Below are positions 20,220-63,935 of a DNA stretch of 64,000 bases, piece by piece. Under the pieces are notes generated by a model. That model was not told the DNA's origin. It ran no database searches and saw nothing but the letters and a program-made list of their open reading frames with translations. Where the stretch lies: the NCBI GenBank assembly GCA_027028145.1, contig JALVJV010000005.1, positions 1-64,000 on the forward strand, written 5' to 3'. The position numbers and the translations under genes are program-made. This DNA comes from Archaeoglobaceae archaeon (GTDB lineage Archaea; Halobacteriota; Archaeoglobi; Archaeoglobales; Archaeoglobaceae). Within the stretch, counting starts at the first letter, position 1; each line of letters begins with the position of its first letter.

Positions 20220-20280
20220 TACCCTCAGCCAGCCATCCTTTCATCATCGATCAGTAGCTCACCAGCTTCATCATCGGCAT
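20220..20280 (-). ncRNA. C/D box sRNA 4
   Basis: Minus strand: short terminal GCC-type stem, C box ATGATGA (20268-20274), 13-nt guide (20255-20267), D' CTGA (20251-20254), 3-nt spacer, C' ATGATGA (20241-20247), 12-nt guide (20229-20240), D CTGA (20225-20228). Lies about 30 bp upstream of sRNA 3 on the same strand and downstream of the helicase gene; the two may come from one precursor. Confidence 0.88.
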
Positions 20281-48712: not shown

Positions 48713-48825
48713 TAGAAATATAATAATAATTTAAATTATATATTAATATCCTGCAGAATTTGACCATTTGGTAAGAAAAAATTTTAATAGTATCAATTAA
48801 GAATCGTAGAGTGGTGAGAAGAACT
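48713..48825. promoter_or_regulatory. A+T-rich upstream region of the first surface-protein gene
   Basis: Rich in A/T with TTAAATTATATATTAA near 48731-48746 and ATTTTAATAG near 48780-48790; the latter lies about 40 bp before the ATG at 48826 with GGTGAG as ribosome site. An inverted repeat GGTCAAATT (48680s) / AATTTGACC (48760s) spans part of it. Confidence 0.4.
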
Positions 48826-51630
48826 ATGATTATGAGAAAATGTTTGGCGATCTTTATAGTAGTAGTTTCAGTTCTATTATTATCAGGAACTGTCAGCGCT
48901 TTAAGCGTCACGGTAAGTGATACGACGCCCACTATTGTTGCTCCCATGGAAAACTATAGTGCTTATAACATAACGATAACCTTAGGGACAATAGCTTCGG
49001 CAACATTGGAATGGCTCAACGTTACGATAAATAAGACTGTTCCAAATCCGGCATCCCTTAGTAATATTAAAAACATAAGTGTAATTATAAACACAACGGG
49101 ACAGAACATAGTTAATTATGCTCTCAGGTCTTCTAACGGCAGTTGGATATGTCTGAACTTAAGCGCTACGCCAATTAGTAACACTACTCCAAACATTTTA
49201 ACCGTTTACATACTCCTCAACAATACAGGCTTAGTGGATGGCTCCGAACTCGCACTTAACGGAACACTCGTAATGAATGTTACAAGGTCTTCTGGTGGTA
49301 ACATAACTAATGACCCTGCCCCCGAGATAATCAACGTCCTAAACGCTACGCTAAACATAACGGACGAATACGCCGCCCAGAATCAGGATAATATCGTGGT
49401 CGCAAATTTAGCAATAACACCCGGTAACAACTCCGTTTCCACACATCTCGATGCTGTAACATTCAACATTACCAGCATAACAAATCTAAGCCCAAATAGC
49501 ATAAAGAGCTTCACGCTGTGGAACGATACAAACGGAAACGGTAAGCTCGATCCATCCGATCAACCTATAGCTACAGAGCCGGGAGGCAAGTTTAACGTCA
49601 GCTTTACTAACCTCAGTAGCAATCCTCAATCTTTAATTCCGGCTGGAGCCGTGAATCATCACTTCTTCCTGACGATAAACGTGAGCGGAGCTAAGGTTGG
49701 TGCCCGTTATCAGCTACAGATTTTTGCTCAAAACATAGTAATAGATCAGGGAACGGGTGACTCGGATACAAAGGTAAGTCCGACATATCTAACGATAATG
49801 AAGGCGGAAGAGGATACGACTCCGGTAACGCTGATCGCCCCGGGTGAAACTGTTACAGCCTTCAACGTTACGTATTACGAAAGAACGAGTGACACGGATG
49901 GATCCACGATTCAAAGTATATCTATCGATTGGAACAAATCCGCAATAAATCTTGCGGAGCCGAGCAACATAATGAATATTACTATACTGAACGCAACAAC
50001 GGGCGCCTTGCTTAACTACACGGGACCCATAAGTAGTTTTCCCATAACCCTTCCATTAAATGTTGTAGTTCCCGACAACAGCTCTTATAAGATTATGATA
50101 TGCGTAACTGCAAGCACAAGTGGCTTAATCGACGGAAAGAACATATCGCTCAACGTAACTATCAGAGACAACGAAAGCGAAGTTTTGTATGCGAGCGATC
50201 CATATCCTGAGACGATTAACGTCCTTGATGCTCAGGTTCACCCAACCCTCGCTCACGCATCTGAGGGTCAAAAGTTCGTTGTAGTTGCGAATGTCACGGT
50301 TGACCCCGCAAATGATACCGTCAACACATACCTCAGATCGATAACATTTAAGGTTACTCCGATTACAACTCTAACGAAGAATTATATCGAAAGCTATATT
50401 CTCTGGAACGATACAAATGGAAACGGTAAGCTCGATATTAATCAGGACACCCCGCTCGAAAAGATAGTAAGTCCAAGCGGAGTTAACGTAACATTTACTG
50501 TAAACTCGCTCATACCCGCTGGACACGTTAACAGATACTTCCTAACGCTTAACCTGTCTTCGGATATTCCCCAGAATCAAATCCATTATCAAGTTGAGAT
50601 ACCGGCACAGGGGATAGTGATAAGTCAGGGATCAGGAGACAGCAAGGATCTTAAGTTCCAGATCCTCTCCATAACGACCGTTCGAGATTCTCCCATAACT
50701 TACGTGCATCCGGGAGAAACTTATCTGGCATACAACATAACTTACGCCGAGAACATGAACGATGCAACCGGTGAACAGTTGAGATGGCTTAACGTAACCG
50801 GAATGAGTGCCGGCACAATTAAGGATATCGTAAATGTTACCGTCAGAAACGCGACCGACGGAACATTGTTAGGATACAACAACTCTTTTGTTAGTTTTCC
50901 GATCAGCGTAAAGCTTAACGCCATTGTTCCAAACAACGGAACATACAAGCTCGCGGTTTACGTTACCGCCAGTCCATCGGTTCGGGATGGAACTCGCATA
51001 GCACTAAATGCGGAGCTGAAAACAAACGAGACATATAAAGCCTTAGTCGTCAATGATCCTTCACCAGAAATTGTCAGTATAACTGGAATAAGAATAATAG
51101 CACCAAGTAAAATTTATGCTGGATGGAGTGACATAACCGTAAAAGTTGTAGATCCCGCCGGGAATCCGTTATCAGGCTGTAGAGTTACTTTATCGGGTTG
51201 CGGAATTAAACCAATTACAAAGATTACGAACAAGAACGGAATTGCCTTGTTTAAAATATTCACTATGTATGGCGGCACTATCAAGATTCTCGCAACTTAT
51301 ACGAATGTAGCAGGGGAAAAGCTGACTAAAACAACATACATAACAGTTTTACCGCTGAGCACCAGTGGTGGTGGTCAGTTTATTAATTATATTCAAACTC
51401 CGACAACCACTCCTAAACAATTATCTACTCCAAGACCCACCCTAGTTCCGACTACCGCGCCAACTCCGACACATAAGCTGACGCCAATTCCAACTCCCAC
51501 ACCCACGCCGACACTAACTCCGACACCCAAGCCGACTCCAACACCTACGAAGAAGTCACCTGGATTCGAAGCGATATTCGCCATCGCTGGACTAATATCA
51601 ACCACATATATGCTAAGGAGGTTATTATGA
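48826..51630 (+). CDS. Surface glycoprotein with PGF-CTERM sorting signal and EF-hand-like repeats
   Basis: About 934 residues from ATG 48826 with GGTGAG upstream (GTG at 48811 is less likely). Signal peptide MIMRKCLAIFIVVVSVLLLSG...VSA. Body of beta-rich repeated modules with dense N-glycosylation sequons (NxT/S); twice it carries the same calcium-binding loop DTNGNGKLD, near residues 240 and 535, as in EF-hand/dockerin loops. Pro/Thr-rich linker near 880-910 and C-terminal PGF motif SPGFEAIFAIAGL followed by membrane helix and RRLL: processed and lipid-anchored by an archaeosortase. Probably an S-layer or surface adhesin-like protein. Confidence 0.85.
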   Translation: MIMRKCLAIFIVVVSVLLLSGTVSALSVTVSDTTPTIVAPMENYSAYNITITLGTIASATLEWLNVTINKTVPNPASLSNIKNISVIINTTGQNIVNYALRSSNGSWICLNLSATPISNTTPNILTVYILLNNTGLVDGSELALNGTLVMNVTRSSGGNITNDPAPEIINVLNATLNITDEYAAQNQDNIVVANLAITPGNNSVSTHLDAVTFNITSITNLSPNSIKSFTLWNDTNGNGKLDPSDQPIATEPGGKFNVSFTNLSSNPQSLIPAGAVNHHFFLTINVSGAKVGARYQLQIFAQNIVIDQGTGDSDTKVSPTYLTIMKAEEDTTPVTLIAPGETVTAFNVTYYERTSDTDGSTIQSISIDWNKSAINLAEPSNIMNITILNATTGALLNYTGPISSFPITLPLNVVVPDNSSYKIMICVTASTSGLIDGKNISLNVTIRDNESEVLYASDPYPETINVLDAQVHPTLAHASEGQKFVVVANVTVDPANDTVNTYLRSITFKVTPITTLTKNYIESYILWNDTNGNGKLDINQDTPLEKIVSPSGVNVTFTVNSLIPAGHVNRYFLTLNLSSDIPQNQIHYQVEIPAQGIVISQGSGDSKDLKFQILSITTVRDSPITYVHPGETYLAYNITYAENMNDATGEQLRWLNVTGMSAGTIKDIVNVTVRNATDGTLLGYNNSFVSFPISVKLNAIVPNNGTYKLAVYVTASPSVRDGTRIALNAELKTNETYKALVVNDPSPEIVSITGIRIIAPSKIYAGWSDITVKVVDPAGNPLSGCRVTLSGCGIKPITKITNKNGIALFKIFTMYGGTIKILATYTNVAGEKLTKTTYITVLPLSTSGGGQFINYIQTPTTTPKQLSTPRPTLVPTTAPTPTHKLTPIPTPTPTPTLTPTPKPTPTPTKKSPGFEAIFAIAGLISTTYMLRRLL
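51529..51593 (+). repeat. C-terminal PGF cassette, copy 1
   Basis: 65 bp coding for the end of the linker and the PGF-CTERM core; it differs from copy 2 (56677-56741) at only three positions. Far more alike than the rest of the two proteins. Confidence 0.85.
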
Positions 51631-51717: not shown

Positions 51718-53085
51718 CTACCAATTAGTTCTCTTGGGCTCGATGTATTCCTTCGGAGCGCATTCTATGGGCTCGAGATACTTTCTTAAAACCTTCGGAA
51801 TCTCGACCCTACCGTCTTCAAGCTGGTAGTTTTCGATTATGGCTGTGATAGCCCTCGTTGTGGCTATGGCGGTGGAATTCAGTGTATGAACGAAACCCTT
51901 CGTAGGCTTTCCTCTCTCTTCAGCGAACCTTATGTTAAGCCTGTAGCTCTGCCAGTCCGTGCAATTTGAGCATGATACCATCTCTCTGTATCTGCCCTGA
52001 GCGGGCATCCAAGCTTCCAAGTCGTATTTCTTCGCCGCAACTACGCCTATATCTCCCGAGCATATGTTTACGATTCTGTAAGGAATTCCCAAGCCTTGCC
52101 AAAGCTTTTCGGCGTTTTCTATAAGCTTCTCATGCCACTCCCAGCTTTGATCCGGTAAGCAATAAACGAACTGCTCAACCTTGTTGAACTGGTGGACTCT
52201 GAAGATACCTTTAGTATCCTTCCCGTGAGCTCCGGCTTCCTTCCTGAAGCACGGGCTTACTCCTGCGTAGAGCAATGGGAGTTCGTCTTCCTCAAGCACT
52301 TCGTTCATATGCATGGCCGCGAGGGGATGTTCGGAAGTCGCGATCAGATAAAGATCCTCGTCTTCGATCTTGTATATAACTTCCTCGAAATCGCTGAAAG
52401 CTGTAACTCCCTGATAAGCTTCTCTTCTCATCATGTAGGGCGGATTAACGATTTTGAATCCCTTTTTAGCAAGAAAATCCAGAGCGTAAAACGTTAAAGC
52501 GAAGTCCAGCCAAACTAAATCGTCGAACAGATAGTAAAACCTCGAACCGGCAACCTTTCCGGCTCTTATTATGTCCGCCCAGCCGAACCTCTCTACTGCA
52601 TCCGCATGCCCCAACGGTGTTTTATCGATTACTTCGTATTCGACATCGAAACCCTTCGTTTGCTCTAAAAATTGATCCAAATGCTCCTTGTAAACCTTCG
52701 GCTTACCCCAAAACCTTATAGGCACGTTATCGTTCTCATCTCTTCCCTCTGGAACGGATTCGTGCAGTATGTTCGGAATCGAAAGCAGAACCTTGCTAAG
52801 CTCTTCCTCAATCCTCTTAAGCTCCTCCTCTCCCTTCTTAACGAGTTCCGAAATTTCTTTGGCTTTTGCAATCAGTTCGGCTTTCTTCTCCTTCGGAGCG
52901 GATTTTATCTCTTGGGATAGCTTGTTTCTCTCGTGCCTCAGCCTGTTTAGCTCCTTAAGCTTTTGTCTCCATAGTTTGTCGAGTTCTATCGCTTTTTCGA
53001 CTATTTCAACGCTTTCTCCTCTCTTTTTCTGAGACTCGATGAGAATCTCAGGGTTCTCTCTCAGAGCTTTGAGTATGCTCCACAT
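51718..53085 (-). CDS. serS: Seryl-tRNA synthetase
   Basis: 455 residues, bacterial/common type (not the methanogen form). N-terminal coiled coil (residues about 30-105), class II motif 2 CFRKEAGAHGKDTKGIFRVHQFNKVEQF near 270, motif 3 near 395 (LNSTAIATTRAITAIIEN). Serine-binding TSEHPLAAMH near 235. Charges tRNA-Ser and provides tRNA-Sec precursor. Likely leaderless (CTTTATAAAC box 26 bp upstream). Confidence 0.97.
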   Translation of the reverse strand: MWSILKALRENPEILIESQKKRGESVEIVEKAIELDKLWRQKLKELNRLRHERNKLSQEIKSAPKEKKAELIAKAKEISELVKKGEEELKRIEEELSKVLLSIPNILHESVPEGRDENDNVPIRFWGKPKVYKEHLDQFLEQTKGFDVEYEVIDKTPLGHADAVERFGWADIIRAGKVAGSRFYYLFDDLVWLDFALTFYALDFLAKKGFKIVNPPYMMRREAYQGVTAFSDFEEVIYKIEDEDLYLIATSEHPLAAMHMNEVLEEDELPLLYAGVSPCFRKEAGAHGKDTKGIFRVHQFNKVEQFVYCLPDQSWEWHEKLIENAEKLWQGLGIPYRIVNICSGDIGVVAAKKYDLEAWMPAQGRYREMVSCSNCTDWQSYRLNIRFAEERGKPTKGFVHTLNSTAIATTRAITAIIENYQLEDGRVEIPKVLRKYLEPIECAPKEYIEPKRTNW

Positions 53086-53481
53086 AACAGAAATGCCAGA
53101 GCCTGCCCTGTTTATAAAGGTTTAATCGCAAATTAATTTTTGAAATGTTTGATTTTTTGATTTTTAAAATTATTTTGTATTTTGATTGTTTCGAGTTCTA
53201 AGTTAAAAAATTTGAATTAGATTTTTCCGTAAAAAAGTGGTGGGTGTTTTTAGCGTGTTGGAGGTCTAACAAATAATTAACGATTACTTTTACGCTGTTC
53301 GACGATTTTAATTGTTTTTTATTATGCATTCTATAGCAAAAAGCTTAAATATGTCATGGATTTTATAAAGGAAAGGTGACGGCGGGGGTAGTCAAGAGAA
53401 TAGCTATCTCCGCCGTCACAAAGAGTAGGGTTTATATATGGTTGAGTGGAAAAACTGTTTGGTTTTGGGAGGTAGAGAAAT
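53086..53481. promoter_or_regulatory. serS / surface-protein divergent region with 5' stem-loop
   Basis: About 395 bp, very A+T-rich. P1: TTAAATAT (53345-53352) places a start site at about 53375, exactly where a strong stem begins: GTGACGGCGGGGGTAG (53376-53391) pairs with CTATCTCCGCCGTCAC (53404-53419) over 16 bp with two G:U pairs and a 12-nt loop. P2: TTTATATA (53431-53438) gives a start near 53461. Both precede the ribosome site GGGAGGT (53467-53473) of the surface-protein gene at 53482. The serS side carries its own TATA box on the minus strand at about 53111-53120. No ORF. Confidence 0.7.
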
Positions 53482-56400
53482 ATGAAAGGATTGGGTAAAG
53501 TAGGTTTAGCAATATTAGCGACACTACTGATTGCAGTGGCTACAGCGAGTGCGGCAACGGTAACGATTGCAGTCAACAAAACTGCGAGCAAAAACCCAGT
53601 GTCCAACTACGTCATCAGCGGATTAAACTATACAGCGATTGACGTGAACGTTACGGGCTTAGCTACCAATTGGACTACTCTTTACATCAACGTAAGCGGT
53701 TGTGATACTAACATTGTTGGAGCACAGTTATTGGCAAATGGTTCTACTACAAATGTAACGCTTAATAGTCCAGTAGTAACTGGCACGAGTGTTAAGATAA
53801 CAACTAATGTTGTTGGAACTAATCCGAGTTCACCAACATGGGTAAAAGTTCTACTTAAGGTATTCCCCAAGACAACGGGAACATTAACGATAACAGCCGA
53901 TGCATATAATGGAACTACTCCAGTAAACAGCACTACTAACACAATTGATGTCGTAGCATCCGACACGGGGGCTCCGTTGCCGATCGATAACATTCAGCTT
54001 AAGTATTATAACACTACAACCAAGAGCGTCCAGTTCATGATTAAGTTCTCACCGGCAAGCGACTATAAGACTGACACATATCCGAAGATAATCCAGTATG
54101 ATTACGGCAACAAGATTACGATTGATGTTTACAACTACAACCCCAACACGGATTACTACACGATGGTAGAGGTCAAGAACTTGGACAACGGTTTAATCGC
54201 CAAGTCGTTCAGCATGGGTAAGGGTGTTACATACGGCACATTCACGATCGACACAACTGAGATCGGTCCGGGTAACTACACAATCATAATAACGAACGGT
54301 CCAATGAAGTGGAACATAACTGATCCGAGTGCTCCTACGAACGCTGGTGCTCACAAGATTTACGTTAAGTCAGTCTCACCAATAGTATCAGTTAGCCTGA
54401 TGAACCCGAGAACGCCTATAGCAATGGGTGATATCGCCAAGTTCAAGATAAAGGTTCAGGGTTACGTGGGTGCGGCTACTGTAAAGGTTGAAGGTCCATT
54501 TGAGAACTCGCCAGTCACAAAGACGTTGTATTTCGGTGGTTCTAACGGAACCGAGCAGATATTCTTGGTTGATACATCTAACACAACAGAGTTCAAGAAC
54601 GCACATGCTGGAACATGGGAGTTGAAGGTAATAGTCGGTTCGACCACTGCAACCTACGACTTCCAGGTTGCAGATGTCACTGTCAGCGCCAACTTGCCGT
54701 CAACAGCGTATCTGTCGCAGGAGATCAAGCTTAGCGGTGTTACCAACATAGCGGAAACCGGTAGCTCATACGATGCAAACGGTGACAACTATGTATACAT
54801 ATACATCTTCAGTCCAAATGGTAGCCTGATTCAGTGGAATAACGGAGCATGGGTCATAAACACCAGCCTGACTACATCAAACGTTAATCCTGAGACCGAC
54901 CTTGCCAATGTATCGTGCAAAGTTAACGTGAAGTCCGACGGTTCGTGGGAGTTTGCGCACAACCTCAAGCTTAACCTAAGCTGGGACACCGGTGCATACA
55001 GAATCGATGTCGTGGCAAGAACAGTATCGTCACCCAACGCACCAAGCTCGATGTATGACCACGAGACATACTACATAAACGTCAAGAAGCCAAAGATCGA
55101 GTGGAGAATGAGCAAGCTTACGTTTACGAACGGTGAGAGCATAGTATTCAAGGGTATTGCAACCGTAAACGCTGGAACTAATGTATACATTGCATGCACA
55201 AGCGGTAGCTTGAAGGACTTGCTTGAAGAGCCACTGTCTAACGACTACATCGTCGTGTCCGTTAGCACGGATGGAACCTGGAAGTCCAACGAATACCACA
55301 TAAGCCCGAGCGCCGCAAGAACGTCATACACGCTTGTAGCATACATCACGAAGGATAACAAATATGCCAGCTACACAAGCACGGATGTCCTGTGTTCAGC
55401 ATATACAACGATAACGGTAGTTAAGGCAACTATAAACGCAAAGCTGTCGAGACAAGTTCTCGTAAGAGGCGCTGACGTTGTATTATCAGGACACAGCCCA
55501 ATTGACACGCTATACCTTTACACGGACAAGGAAGGTGTATTTGACAACATTGCCAAGTTGCCATCGACATCAACATGGTTGACCAAAGACCATCCGACGC
55601 TCGTTGTCAAGACCGACTCAAACGGAAACTTCAAGATAACGCTCACAGTCAGCAAGACGGTTGATTCTGGTTCATACATCCTGTATGTAATTGCTCCAGC
55701 AAACACAAGTGAGATCAATCTCGGAACGGACGCTTACGTGCAGATACCAGTAACGATCCAGAGTGTGGGATTCGTCCACGTTCCAGACAAGATCGTAATA
55801 ACGAGAGGTGGACAGAAGGATGTCTACATTGCCGTGAATGCCGAGCCTGACACGGTCGTCATCGCGGCATACAAGCTTAAGGGACACGGTGTTGACATCG
55901 ACTATGGCACGCCTCCGAACTTCCACGGATTCAACAAGTTCAGCAAGTGGAACGAGACGAACGGCACATACTGGATGTTCGTTACACTGTATCCATACTA
56001 CAACCCAGACACCACAAGCCTGAACTCCACATGGACACCGGGATGCAAGCTGTTGCCAGTTGGTCAGTATGAGTTCTCAATTAAGCTATACAAGAAGAGC
56101 ACCGGGAACTACTGGGAGGAGGCAGATGAAGTAAAGATACCGCTGATAATAGAACCTGTAAAGCTCACGGTGGACGTTCCATCGGTTGTCAAGAAGGGAG
56201 ACGAGATAGTTGTAAAGATCAAGGAGAACAGAGTTGGTGAGAAGTCATACGACCACATCTACGTCGTGCTCGACCTCGGAACCAAACTCAGGAAGTATGA
56301 GTCCGTAGCTCTTAACGCAAGCGGTGAAGCAATCGTTAAGATACCCACAGCCGACATCACACCTGGCACATACAAGCTCTATGTTAGAGATACGCTTGGC

Positions 56401-56778
56401 AACGACGGTCCGAACGACCAGTGGTTCGTTAACAACATTAGCACATACTACAACGTGCCTCCTACTGACAGCTACGCAAAGGTATTCGGTGGAGACGATG
56501 ACATACTCGTAGTCAAGGATGTTACGATCACGGAGAACGTAACCGCTGTGGCCACGCCAACACCAACACCGACACCCACGCCTACGCCCACACCTACGCC
56601 CACTCCAACACCCACGCCTACGCCAACACCGACTCCGACACCTACGCCCACTCCAACACCCACGAAGACTCCCGCTAAGCCGACGCCAACACCTACGAAG
56701 AAGTCACCTGGATTCGAAGCGATCTTCGCCATCGCCGGACTGCTGGCAGTAGCATACCTGCTGAGAAGAAGACAGTAA
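53482..56778 (+). CDS. Major surface (S-layer-like) protein with PGF-CTERM anchor
   Basis: 1098 residues. Signal peptide MKGLGKVGLAILATLLIAVATASA; long beta-rich ectodomain with many NxT/S sequons; (Thr-Pro)n linker from about residue 1020; C-terminal SPGFEAIFAIAGLLAVAYLLRRRQ, i.e. PGF-CTERM core plus membrane helix and basic end. The strong ribosome site GGGAGGT, two possible promoters, a stable 5' leader hairpin and codon-rich G+C pattern suggest very high expression; this is probably the main cell-wall protein of the organism. The archaeosortase that would process it is not in the window. Confidence 0.85.
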   Translation: MKGLGKVGLAILATLLIAVATASAATVTIAVNKTASKNPVSNYVISGLNYTAIDVNVTGLATNWTTLYINVSGCDTNIVGAQLLANGSTTNVTLNSPVVTGTSVKITTNVVGTNPSSPTWVKVLLKVFPKTTGTLTITADAYNGTTPVNSTTNTIDVVASDTGAPLPIDNIQLKYYNTTTKSVQFMIKFSPASDYKTDTYPKIIQYDYGNKITIDVYNYNPNTDYYTMVEVKNLDNGLIAKSFSMGKGVTYGTFTIDTTEIGPGNYTIIITNGPMKWNITDPSAPTNAGAHKIYVKSVSPIVSVSLMNPRTPIAMGDIAKFKIKVQGYVGAATVKVEGPFENSPVTKTLYFGGSNGTEQIFLVDTSNTTEFKNAHAGTWELKVIVGSTTATYDFQVADVTVSANLPSTAYLSQEIKLSGVTNIAETGSSYDANGDNYVYIYIFSPNGSLIQWNNGAWVINTSLTTSNVNPETDLANVSCKVNVKSDGSWEFAHNLKLNLSWDTGAYRIDVVARTVSSPNAPSSMYDHETYYINVKKPKIEWRMSKLTFTNGESIVFKGIATVNAGTNVYIACTSGSLKDLLEEPLSNDYIVVSVSTDGTWKSNEYHISPSAARTSYTLVAYITKDNKYASYTSTDVLCSAYTTITVVKATINAKLSRQVLVRGADVVLSGHSPIDTLYLYTDKEGVFDNIAKLPSTSTWLTKDHPTLVVKTDSNGNFKITLTVSKTVDSGSYILYVIAPANTSEINLGTDAYVQIPVTIQSVGFVHVPDKIVITRGGQKDVYIAVNAEPDTVVIAAYKLKGHGVDIDYGTPPNFHGFNKFSKWNETNGTYWMFVTLYPYYNPDTTSLNSTWTPGCKLLPVGQYEFSIKLYKKSTGNYWEEADEVKIPLIIEPVKLTVDVPSVVKKGDEIVVKIKENRVGEKSYDHIYVVLDLGTKLRKYESVALNASGEAIVKIPTADITPGTYKLYVRDTLGNDGPNDQWFVNNISTYYNVPPTDSYAKVFGGDDDILVVKDVTITENVTAVATPTPTPTPTPTPTPTPTPTPTPTPTPTPTPTPTPTPTKTPAKPTPTPTKKSPGFEAIFAIAGLLAVAYLLRRRQ
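56555..56668 (+). repeat. Thr-Pro codon repeat
   Basis: Repeated ACN-CCN (Thr-Pro) codons form the linker of the surface protein; the degenerate 6-bp unit gives a simple-sequence tract prone to length change. The same style, shorter, occurs at 51470-51545 in the other surface protein. Its reverse strand shows a long false Val-Gly frame. Confidence 0.9.
56677..56741 (+). repeat. C-terminal PGF cassette, copy 2
   Basis: 65 bp nearly identical (62 of 65) to 51529-51593; both code for the same PGF-CTERM core. See copy 1. Confidence 0.85.
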
Positions 56779-60660: not shown

Positions 60661-61548
60661 ATGAAGTTGAAGCTAACGATAGCAACATACTCCGCGATAG
60701 TTCTGGTTAAGTTCGTATGCTACGCGATTACCGGATACCTCGCGATGCTTGCGGAAGCCCTACACAACGTCGTCGATTTGCTCATATTTTCGGCTTTACT
60801 ATACTCTGAGAAGATCTCCGCAAAGCCCGCCGATCACCTCCATCCCTTAGGACACGGACTCGCAAAAAATCTGAGCGGAGTTGTAGTTGCCGTGGTATTT
60901 ATAACGGTCGTAGCCTTCGAACTCTTTTTGGAGGGGATCGAAAGGATCCTGCATCCTTCAGCCGGCAGATACCCGGAGTTCGCCGTAATCGTCCTCGTTG
61001 CAACGATATTGGCACCCGCCTTATTGACCTTGATCTACCGTGGTGAAAGGAGCTCTACGGAAGAGTCGGCTTTTGCGGAGTTGTTAAACGACATAGCATC
61101 ATCACTCGGAGCTATTTTCGGAATATACTTCAGTTCAATCGGATATCCGATTGCCGACGGTTTGGCATCCATCTTCATAGCCGTGCTGATAAGCCTAAAC
61201 GGCTACAGACTTTTCAAAACTAACGCAAGCTATTTGCTCGGAAGGAGCCCGGACGAAAGCTTTTACGAGAGGGTTAGGGCTATAGTAGAGTCGTTTCCGG
61301 AGGTTGAAGACGTTCACGACATCATAGCCATATACATGGGCGAGAACAGAATCCACTTGGATATGCACGTAACGGTCGATGGCTCGATGAGCGTTAGGGA
61401 GGCCGATGAATTAACGGCGAGAATTGCTAAGAAGATTTTGCAAGAAATACCGGAAGTCGCATACGTTCTGATTCACGTTTGTGCTGAAAGAGGCAAAGAA
61501 TTCAAAACGACATACGATTCCGTTATGAGAAGGGTCTTCAAGATGTAG
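60661..61548 (+). CDS. Cation diffusion facilitator (CDF) transporter
   Basis: 295 residues from ATG 60661 (MKLKLTIATYSAIVLVKF); a longer frame would pass through the structured RNA. Six membrane helices; zinc/iron site pieces HNVVDLLIF with first HxxxD and LNDIASSLGAIFG, LADG near 180. Cytoplasmic end with HDIIAIYMGENRIHLDMHVTVDG. Exports divalent metals. Its stop overlaps the ACA box of the H/ACA RNA on the other strand. Confidence 0.9.
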   Translation: MKLKLTIATYSAIVLVKFVCYAITGYLAMLAEALHNVVDLLIFSALLYSEKISAKPADHLHPLGHGLAKNLSGVVVAVVFITVVAFELFLEGIERILHPSAGRYPEFAVIVLVATILAPALLTLIYRGERSSTEESAFAELLNDIASSLGAIFGIYFSSIGYPIADGLASIFIAVLISLNGYRLFKTNASYLLGRSPDESFYERVRAIVESFPEVEDVHDIIAIYMGENRIHLDMHVTVDGSMSVREADELTARIAKKILQEIPEVAYVLIHVCAERGKEFKTTYDSVMRRVFKM

Positions 61549-61608
61549 CCCGTCTGGAGCCCACGGGACATCATGCTTCTCAGTCCCGCCGGGTTCTAAC
61601 GGGCATAC
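61544..61608 (-). ncRNA. H/ACA box sRNA (pseudouridylation guide)
   Basis: Minus strand: lower stem GCCCGT/ACGGGC (61599-61604 with 61548-61553), an internal pocket (TAGAA 5', CTCCAG 3'), upper stem CCC/GGG and CGGGAC/GTCCCG, terminal loop TGAGAAGCATGAT that forms a kink-loop with two TGA elements for L7Ae, then ACA (61544-61546) one base after the lower stem. Pocket-to-ACA distance of about 13-14 nt fits archaeal H/ACA guides. A minus-strand TATA-like AGATATCTTT lies about 26 bp upstream. Target not determined. Confidence 0.72.
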
Positions 61609-61679
61609 ATCGTTTGCTGAATGGAAAGATATCTTTTTCGCATCAACATTTTTATACTTTGCCAACCATTTTTACATCA

Positions 61680-63935
61680 ATGGAAGCCGAGATCTGGGTC
61701 GAAAAATACAGACCGAAAACGCTCGACGAGGTCGTAGGGCAGGATGAGGTTATTAAGAGGCTCAAGAGTTACGTTCAAAAGAAGAACATTCCCCATCTGC
61801 TTTTTGCCGGTCCTCCGGGAACTGGAAAAACCGCTACCGCCATCGCCTTGGCAAGGGATTTATTCGGTGAGAATTGGCGAGATAACTTTATAGAGATGAA
61901 CGCTTCAGTAACCCCAGACACACCCATCCTCGTAAGAATCAACGGAGTGATCAAGAGAACTACGTTTGAAGAGATCGATAGAATGTTTTTCAAAGACGAA
62001 AAAGAAGAATATGTGGTTCCGATCAATTTGGAAACTCTAAGCTTCCGCGAAGATGTCGGATTTTATCCCGTTTCGTTCATAGCAAGACATAAAGCCGATA
62101 GGATTCTGAGGATAAGGTTCGAAGGCGGAGAGGTAAAAACAACGCCAGATCACTCAGTCATGGTTCTGAATGAAAAGGGAGAGATAGTCTCTAAGAGAGC
62201 CGACGAACTCAAAAAGGGCGACTTTCTGCTGTCGTTTAAGAAATGCTTAGAGGGCTCAGAGCTATCGATAAATCTGCTGGAATATCTGCAGGGCTACAAC
62301 AACCCGAAGCTAAGAACCGTGCTGACTGAGTTCCCGATCAACGAGCAGACATCTTGGATAATGGGACTATTTTTGGCTGAAGGCTGTCTGAGTTTTAGAA
62401 ACGAAACTTCTGGACAAGTAATATTTACAGTATCGGCAAAAGAGCAGGAACTAATTGAACGAGTAAAGAGCTTCGGTTGCGCTTTTGGCATTTCGACATA
62501 CACCCAGCCGGCATATTCCGGCTTTGATAGAAGTAGAGCATCAGCCGTTCACGTTAAACTTCTGAATACTCAGCTCGCAAGGTTCTTCAGAGATGTCTTC
62601 AGCGGGCATGTAGCAAGATCAAAGAGAGTTCCAGAGATAATATTTAACAGCACATTGCGAAACAGACTGTCGTTCCTAATGGGCTACATGGGTGATGGAT
62701 GCGGAACTTGGGGTAGATACGTAAGATATACCTCCGTATCTAAGGACATACTGATAGACATCGCTTGGCTCGGTAGGATTTCTGGTTTAGAGTCATCGGT
62801 GTTCGATAGAGAAGTAAGACTCGTTTGGGATGCGTTCTCATACGTAAGATCAGAGTTACTACCGGTTGAGCCGTTTAAGAGGTTCTTCAAGCAGATAGAC
62901 GGAAAGATAGACATCAATTGGAAGTATCTACTTAGACATCAACTCTACAGCGGAAAGAGAAGAGTTAAGAAGTCTACACTGCTGAAGATTCTGAAAGCTA
63001 TTAGAACTGAAGAGCTGGATGAGGAAGAAAGAAAGACGTATTTGAGACTCAAAGCTTTAGCTGAATCTAGCTTGTATGCTGTGGAGATCAAGGAGATCGA
63101 AAAGATAAGCTACGATGGATGGGTTTACGACTTCAGCGTTCCTAATTCAGAGGTGTTCTTCGGCGGAACGACACCCGTTTTATTGCACAACTCGGATGAG
63201 AGGGGTATAGATGTCGTTAGACACAAAATAAAAGAATTTGCAAGGACTGCTCCTATTGGTGGTGCACCATTCAAGATCATATTTTTGGATGAAGCCGACG
63301 CTTTAACAGCTGATGCTCAAGCGGCGTTAAGGAGAACCATGGAGATGTACTCGAAAACATGTAGATTTATACTGAGTTGCAACTACGTCAGCAGAATTAT
63401 AGAGCCGATACAGTCGAGATGTGCGGTATTTAAGTTCAAACCGGTTCCGCCGGAGGCTATGAAGAAGAGACTGCTTGAGATAGCAGAGAAGGAGGGCTTA
63501 AAAATTACAGAAGATGGGCTCGAAGCACTGATTTATATAGCAAATGGAGACTTCAGAAAGGCTATAAACGCTCTGCAAGGTGCCGCGGCCTTCGGAGAAG
63601 TTATCGACGCCGAAGCCATATATCAAATAACCGCTACTGCTCGTCCAGAAGAGATCAAGAAACTGCTTGAAACTGCTTTGGAAGGCAGATTCATGGATGC
63701 TCGACAGATGCTCGACAGGATGATGGTGGAATACGGAATGAGCGGGGAAGATGTAGTTTCACAGCTTTTCAGGGAGATAATAGCTTCGAAGATAGACGAA
63801 AAAACGAAGGTCATGCTAATAGATAGGCTCGGCGAGATAGATTTCAGGCTTACCGAAGGAGCGCACGACAGAATCCAGTTGGATGCTTACTTAGCATATC
63901 TCGCAACGATCGGTAAACGGAAGAAAGAAACGTAG
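61680..63935 (+). CDS. rfcS: Replication factor C small subunit, interrupted by an intein
   Basis: Clamp-loader subunit that loads PCNA. Precursor of 751 residues from ATG 61680 (TTTTTATACT box 26-30 bp upstream supports a leaderless start). Extein of 322 residues, the usual size: RFC box II-type WVEKYRPKTLDEVVGQ, Walker A GPPGTGKTATA, then after the intein the SDERGIDVVR, FLDEADALTADAQAALRR (Walker B) and SCNYVSRIIEPIQSRC boxes. The intein (429 residues) sits at NA/SDERG, the classic RFC insertion site. Splicing restores the normal protein. Confidence 0.97.
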   Translation: MEAEIWVEKYRPKTLDEVVGQDEVIKRLKSYVQKKNIPHLLFAGPPGTGKTATAIALARDLFGENWRDNFIEMNASVTPDTPILVRINGVIKRTTFEEIDRMFFKDEKEEYVVPINLETLSFREDVGFYPVSFIARHKADRILRIRFEGGEVKTTPDHSVMVLNEKGEIVSKRADELKKGDFLLSFKKCLEGSELSINLLEYLQGYNNPKLRTVLTEFPINEQTSWIMGLFLAEGCLSFRNETSGQVIFTVSAKEQELIERVKSFGCAFGISTYTQPAYSGFDRSRASAVHVKLLNTQLARFFRDVFSGHVARSKRVPEIIFNSTLRNRLSFLMGYMGDGCGTWGRYVRYTSVSKDILIDIAWLGRISGLESSVFDREVRLVWDAFSYVRSELLPVEPFKRFFKQIDGKIDINWKYLLRHQLYSGKRRVKKSTLLKILKAIRTEELDEEERKTYLRLKALAESSLYAVEIKEIEKISYDGWVYDFSVPNSEVFFGGTTPVLLHNSDERGIDVVRHKIKEFARTAPIGGAPFKIIFLDEADALTADAQAALRRTMEMYSKTCRFILSCNYVSRIIEPIQSRCAVFKFKPVPPEAMKKRLLEIAEKEGLKITEDGLEALIYIANGDFRKAINALQGAAAFGEVIDAEAIYQITATARPEEIKKLLETALEGRFMDARQMLDRMMVEYGMSGEDVVSQLFREIIASKIDEKTKVMLIDRLGEIDFRLTEGAHDRIQLDAYLAYLATIGKRKKET
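61905..63191 (+). mobile_element. RFC intein with LAGLIDADG homing endonuclease
   Basis: 429-residue intein from Ser (TCA 61905) to Asn (AAC 63191). Splicing motifs: N-terminal SVTPDTPILVRINGVIK, block B TTPDHSVMVL, block F/G VYDFSVPNSEVFFGGTTPVLLHN with the penultimate His, and Ser (+1) of the extein. Between them two LAGLIDADG-type helices: TSWIMGLFLAEGCLS near 62350-62400 and FLMGYMGDGCG near 62670, with Glu/Asp at the catalytic places, so the homing endonuclease may still be active. First residue Ser (not Cys) is notable. Confidence 0.95.

Follow-up and report, generated by a model that had tools for sequence, protein, structure and literature searches.

The window analysed here, a stretch of 64,000 nucleotides from an Archaeoglobaceae archaeon (contig JALVJV010000005.1), carries a gene for an S-layer-type surface protein of 1098 amino acids. 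The protein matches Pfam PF18204 and scores over the cut-off of NCBIfam PGF_CTERM, its match to the S-layer glycoprotein model lies below the threshold, and its N-terminus resembles a signal peptide; we infer that it represents the main surface protein. A second PGF-CTERM surface protein of 939 amino acids is encoded on the far side of serS (48811-51630, plus strand), and its C-terminal end is similar to that of the S-layer protein. The locus is composed of the following features.

51718-53085, minus strand: serS, the upstream neighbour, pointing away from the S-layer-type gene (divergent)
53337-53352, plus strand: promoter P1, consisting of the BRE-like CAAAAAGC and the TATA box TTAAATAT (53345-53352), from the sequence and the comparison of 38 leaders
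53361-53369, plus strand: A+T-rich TTTTATAAA directly ahead of the predicted P1 start, a putative melting region, from the sequence
53372-53376, plus strand: predicted 5' end of the P1 transcript, from the usual archaeal TATA-to-start spacing (PMC4247193)
53376-53419, plus strand: 5'-terminal hairpin with arms 53376-53392 and 53403-53419 and loop 53393-53402, from folding, 38 family leaders, covariation and class-level relatives
53425-53438, plus strand: promoter P2, GTAGGG followed by the TATA box TTTATATA (53431-53438), from conserved spacing and the expected TATA exchanges
53458-53462, plus strand: predicted 5' end of the P2 transcript with a leader of about 20-25 nt, from the TATA spacing
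53467-53473, plus strand: Shine-Dalgarno sequence GGGAGGT (GGAGG at 53468-53472), from the sequence
53482-56778, plus strand: gene of the S-layer-type surface protein (1098 aa, PGF-CTERM, ATG at 53482), from Pfam and NCBIfam

The hairpin is built on the inverted repeat GTGACGGCGGGGGTAG (53376-53391) and CTATCTCCGCCGTCAC (53404-53419), whose arms are separated by 12 nt and whose 16 positions comprise 14 Watson-Crick and two G.U pairs. RNA folding of the leader adds one U.G pair, yielding 17 bp closed by a 10-nt loop, and the hairpin starts 31 nt from TTAAATA. Hereby, the segment 53370-53480 folds with -34.7 kcal/mol, compared to -20.6 ± 2.7 kcal/mol for its shuffles (z = -5.2), so that the 16-bp G+C-rich stem which an earlier note on this DNA had placed at 53376-53419 is borne out. 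The 60-mer following TTAAATAT reaches -31.2 kcal/mol, far ahead of the runner-up (-15.2 kcal/mol), so that none of the other 37 TATA-like sites counted in the window precedes a comparable structure; equally good folding was found for only 1 of 6394 sampled 60-mers. All promoters used for this comparison lie within the window. Across the 38 leaders compared, the core of the stem is still paired at 80 °C in 34; the leader of genome G012 has a stem of merely 5 bp, which melts at this temperature.

A DNA search using the leader found it across the Archaeoglobaceae, for instance in G035 at C1:848537-848643 on the minus strand. Twenty leaders were then combined into a covariance model, with which 393 genomes sampled from the phylum were searched; it matched 36 of the 55 family genomes and gave no match outside the Archaeoglobaceae, and some 330 further genomes of the phylum yielded no copy of the leader. 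For some of the unmatched family genomes, contigs break at the gene (e.g. G001). Strong matches number one or two per genome, and every one with a readable gene start precedes an S-layer-type gene, while the two weak matches that were inspected (E about 0.1-0.2) look like noise. The search for the same stem ahead of S-layer genes in other Archaeoglobales, which the earlier note had proposed as a check, thus turned out positive.

The common layout was derived from 38 leaders of 34 Archaeoglobaceae genomes in 10 genera, all belonging to S-layer-type genes, and runs from BRE/TATA1 over a spacer of 31 nt to a hairpin spanning 15-90 nt, and from there over 13 nt to TATA2 and a further 50 nt or so to the start codon. 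The distance from TATA1 to the first stem pair has a median of 31 nt (range 25-33) and is exactly 31 nt in 17 of the 38 leaders, the distance from the end of the stem to TATA2 is 13 nt (9-15), and TATA2 lies 46-66 nt, mostly 50-51 nt, before the ATG in the first 25 leaders measured. Because both spacings are fixed and the span of the hairpin ranges freely, with an apex of any length, each end of the hairpin is anchored to one of the two promoters. Little or no variation is seen in the AAA of the BRE and in TTA.ATA, the position of TTTTATAAA is A/T-rich in all leaders compared, and the variants of TATA2 (TTTATATA/TTTAAATA/TATATATA) are those that a TATA box would be expected to show. Two further proposals of the earlier note hold up in this comparison, namely that the stem sits where a transcript from TTAAATAT is expected to begin, relative to the predicted start, and that a second TATA box at 53431-53438 follows it, which is conserved among the family leaders. 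An AGGTGA-like motif occurs at the base of the stem and again 10-20 nt past TATA2 in many leaders (53440-53470 and relatives).

Beyond the family, two genomes of the same class but of a different order (G038 and G039) carry S-layer-type genes preceded by TTAAATA, about 30 nt, AGGTGACGGG...CCCGTCACCT, GGAGG and ATG, with no clear TATA box after the stem. Therefore, the hairpin and P1 are kept more widely than P2. In 59 genomes of the class the pattern TTAWATA-N(20-28)-GGTGRCGG gave 37 matches, a few of which (G065, G020) are not S-layer leaders, compared to five for the reversed control, and a stricter pattern applied to the 393 genomes retrieved G038 and G039 (f3) together with one probable chance match in G041. 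The element is absent at the S-layer gene of G010 (genus g7), and the S-layer-like genes of the sister family f2 have no clear copy of the leader: G037 shows a TATA2-like block (GTAGACTTTATATAG) without a clear 5' hairpin, and G036 shows neither. As judged from these genome comparisons, the leader is a conserved element of S-layer genes in the Archaeoglobi, and the distance between promoter and predicted hairpin is held constant across the 38 leaders and their 10 genera.

When the arms are aligned by the stem, 88.5% of the cells pair, a level that none of 500 shuffles reached and that compares to at most 63% in slid versions; the covariation score likewise lies above that of every shuffle and every slid version, with both figures leaning in favour of pairing as the arms had been aligned to suit the stem and come from related rows. 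Stronger indications than these alignment statistics come from two-sided changes within single genera and from the excess of G.U. Within genus g9 one pair is A-U in G012 and G-C in G022, and within genus g4 the same type of exchange separates G034 (A-U) from G027 (G-C). Among 304 cells, 26 are G.U and five A.C, four of the latter belonging to one clade (G034, G064, G018, G007), and this excess suggests that it is the sense RNA which pairs. The sequence of the arms is conserved too (GTGRCGGCG).

These observations bear on the view that a regulator of P1 and P2 binds the two arms as inverted DNA sites, each placed at a fixed distance from its promoter. Such sites would account for the constant position of arm 1 relative to TATA1 and of arm 2 relative to TATA2 at a variable distance from each other, and for the conservation of both arms. 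Compensatory changes on both sides and G.U outnumbering A.C nevertheless fit pairing of the sense-strand RNA, and G038 and G039 keep both arms without a clear TATA2, which leaves paired DNA sites an unlikely explanation.

Identity of the leader to its counterparts in G003 and G002 amounts to 95% and 90%, compared to 91% and 83% for the DNA of serS and to 46% and 41% for the mature S-layer protein. The leader is hence, in these comparisons, more conserved than the neighbouring serS and far more conserved than the S-layer protein it precedes. Kept while the protein changed so much, the hairpin probably protects the beginning of this message, expected to be very abundant, or serves it in some other way. 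Within single genomes, copies of the conserved leader stand ahead of hypervariable coat genes. In the paralogue pairs of G014, G028, G033, G023 and G039 the leaders are 90-98% identical and the mature proteins can scarcely be aligned (about 21-33% wherever the alignable stretch is long enough, some genes being truncated in the DNA compared). This likeness of leaders between paralogues could stem from selection, from gene conversion between the copies, or from both. Contigs G001:C47, G004:C9/C4 and G039:C67 and C150 end within or just after an S-layer leader or signal peptide.

Recombination among S-layer copies might in itself keep the leader alike as a cassette, in which the hairpin would have little function of its own. 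The contrast between leaders and mature proteins of the same genome and the ending of contigs at these genes in several genomes would suit such a process, but gene conversion within a genome produces neither compensatory changes nor a constant spacing between genera. We therefore judge this account highly improbable, although recombination between copies may take place alongside a function of the hairpin.

A G+C-rich stem within an A+T-rich leader also resembles a terminator, an attenuator or a stem that masks the ribosome-binding site. The serS gene upstream is divergent, and the stem is followed by AAAGAGTAGGG, including AAAGAG, rather than by a U-run; termination of an upstream transcript, which the earlier note had named as the finding that would speak against its proposal, is thus a misfit, and an intrinsic terminator is disfavoured. 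In the P1 leader the Shine-Dalgarno sequence has an unpaired probability of 0.94, and this probability exceeds 0.5 in 35 of the 38 leaders, and a search of the leader against Rfam gave nothing relevant, which speaks against a masking or riboswitch-like element. Taken together, this group of explanations is barely credible. Two other candidates were dismissed. A reading frame from the GTG at 53376 is open here and meets an in-frame stop in other genera (GTG GCG GCG GGT TAG in G028), so that it is no conserved uORF, and a dispersed inverted-repeat mobile element is at odds with the low number of strong matches, one or two in each genome, and with their S-layer-type contexts. Another view holds that P1 mainly yields a separate small RNA ending before the gene, with the mRNA made from P2, which by itself has a normal mRNA geometry with its TATA box about 50 nt before the ATG. 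As there is no U-run between the stem and the gene and the leaders occur only ahead of S-layer-type genes, a separate small RNA is very improbable.

In our view the best mechanism, with a probability of roughly one in two, is that the hairpin protects the S-layer mRNA from 5' decay. In T. kodakarensis the TATA motif lies a median of 23 bp upstream of transcript starts (PMC4247193); because archaeal TATA-to-start spacing was applied here, the predicted P1 start falls a few nt from the stem. P1 transcripts would thereby start about 0-5 nt from the stem, and the mRNA would open with a nearly blunt, heat-stable hairpin. This predicted location, measured by the TATA1 spacing of the 38 leaders, fits that of a 5'-terminal stabilising stem-loop. 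With the hairpin in place, beta-CASP exoribonucleases working in the 5'-3' direction and 5'-end processing enzymes would find no single-stranded end, which would prolong the life of a long and very abundant mRNA. P2, in turn, would give a short, ordinary Shine-Dalgarno-led mRNA without the shield, adding output or altering the lifetime. In Sulfolobus, aCPSF2 is a 5'-3' beta-CASP exoribonuclease affecting mRNA and 5'-end-bound aIF2 protects RNA (PMC3792030), and in bacteria a 5'-terminal stem-loop counteracts decay (introduction of PMC3792030). The genome from which the window derives encodes aCPSF1 and a shorter, 407-aa aCPSF2-like beta-CASP protein as candidate nucleases; no RNase J proper was found over the cut-off in this genome. 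Because of the Sulfolobus proteins, the bacterial stem-loops and the presence of aCPSF1 and the aCPSF2-like protein, a 5' shield is the simplest reading. The 5-bp stem of G012, the missing leader in G010 and family f2, and the missing RNase J count against it. Within the literature collection searched, no description of an archaeal S-layer leader with a stem-loop came up, and no start-site map of A. fulgidus was recognised among the results.

Shielding alone fails to explain the conserved sequence of the arms and the fixed 13 nt between stem and TATA2. Since a shield needs only a stem, the conservation of both suggests a further constraint. One alternative is an effect on transcription, whereby the nascent hairpin behind RNA polymerase would stop backtracking and speed up promoter escape or re-initiation, raising the output rather than the lifetime of the mRNA. 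Its position at the predicted start, the conserved arms in the initially transcribed region and the fixed spacing to P1 agree with such an effect, yet any stem would serve, so that the arm sequence is again left unexplained, and stems spanning up to 90 nt would form late; we hold it to be rather unlikely. Conservation of the arms beyond the needs of pairing could instead mark the stem as the site of an RNA-binding protein, through which, for example, a stress protein or one related to the S-layer would exert feedback on the mRNA that encodes it. With loop and span varying freely and no known partner, a protein-binding site is quite unlikely.

The earlier note had further suggested that the two promoters switch between a stable and an unstable form of the mRNA. 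As a hypothesis such a switch is possible, and the claim is weaker than the structural one, which has good support. Moreover, it is unnecessary for a role of the hairpin, because G038 and G039 possess the hairpin without a clear TATA box after it. Tentatively, and with considerable doubt, both aspects may be combined into a cap-like 5' hairpin shield found throughout the class, to which the Archaeoglobaceae would have added P2 and thereby a choice between a long- and a short-lived message.

Little is known about what determines mRNA lifetime in archaea, and a hairpin at the predicted start of an mRNA expected to be very abundant makes 5'-end protection directly testable in this domain. The leader is furthermore a candidate strong leader for genetics in hyperthermophiles, and the combination of a conserved leader with a variable S-layer protein suggests that the coat can be exchanged without loss of expression.

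Elsewhere in the window, the most stable hairpin of all lies at 61542-61611 (plus strand; -42.3 kcal/mol, z = -7.9), ends in GGGCATACATC and is flanked by a cation-efflux-like ORF and a replication factor C ORF; it has no Rfam match and is perhaps an H/ACA-like guide RNA. The replication factor C-like ORF (61614-63935, plus strand) appears, from its translation, to contain an intein. A C/D box guide RNA at 20223-20278 (minus strand) matches the Rfam family sR1 just above the gathering score.

5'-terminal stabilising stem-loops are known from bacteria, namely from ompA and papA of E. coli and from the aprE leader of B. subtilis, where their documented role is protection against 5'-end-dependent decay. 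In line with these, the stem described here is predicted to stand at the 5' end, or close to it, of an mRNA expected to be very abundant, and it leaves the ribosome-binding site open. It differs from them in being archaeal, with a BRE/TATA promoter, other nucleases, a conserved promoter behind the stem and conserved arms, and in that its role is predicted. The S-layer gene slpA of Lactobacillus acidophilus has several promoters and a structured leader that is linked to the stability of its mRNA; the two systems share the type of gene, the structured leader and the multiple promoters, which are predicted in our case, whereas sequence and organism are unrelated. Stabilising bacterial 5' stem-loops also figure among the titles cited in PMC3997798. 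In the archaeon Methanolobus psychrophilus, alternative starts give mRNAs with and without a stem-loop, and long 5' UTRs are structured (PMC5378194). Both cases concern archaeal genes with two starts, predicted in ours, and with forms that contain or lack a stem-loop, but the stem in M. psychrophilus is predicted to mask the ribosome-binding site, whereas here this site is open and the stem 5'-terminal. Finally, in Sulfolobus, according to PMC3936769 and PMC3792030, aIF2-gamma protects the 5' end of mRNA from 5'-3' decay. The shield in that case is a protein on the triphosphate, and the one proposed here would be an RNA structure that would likewise block decay in the 5'-3' direction.
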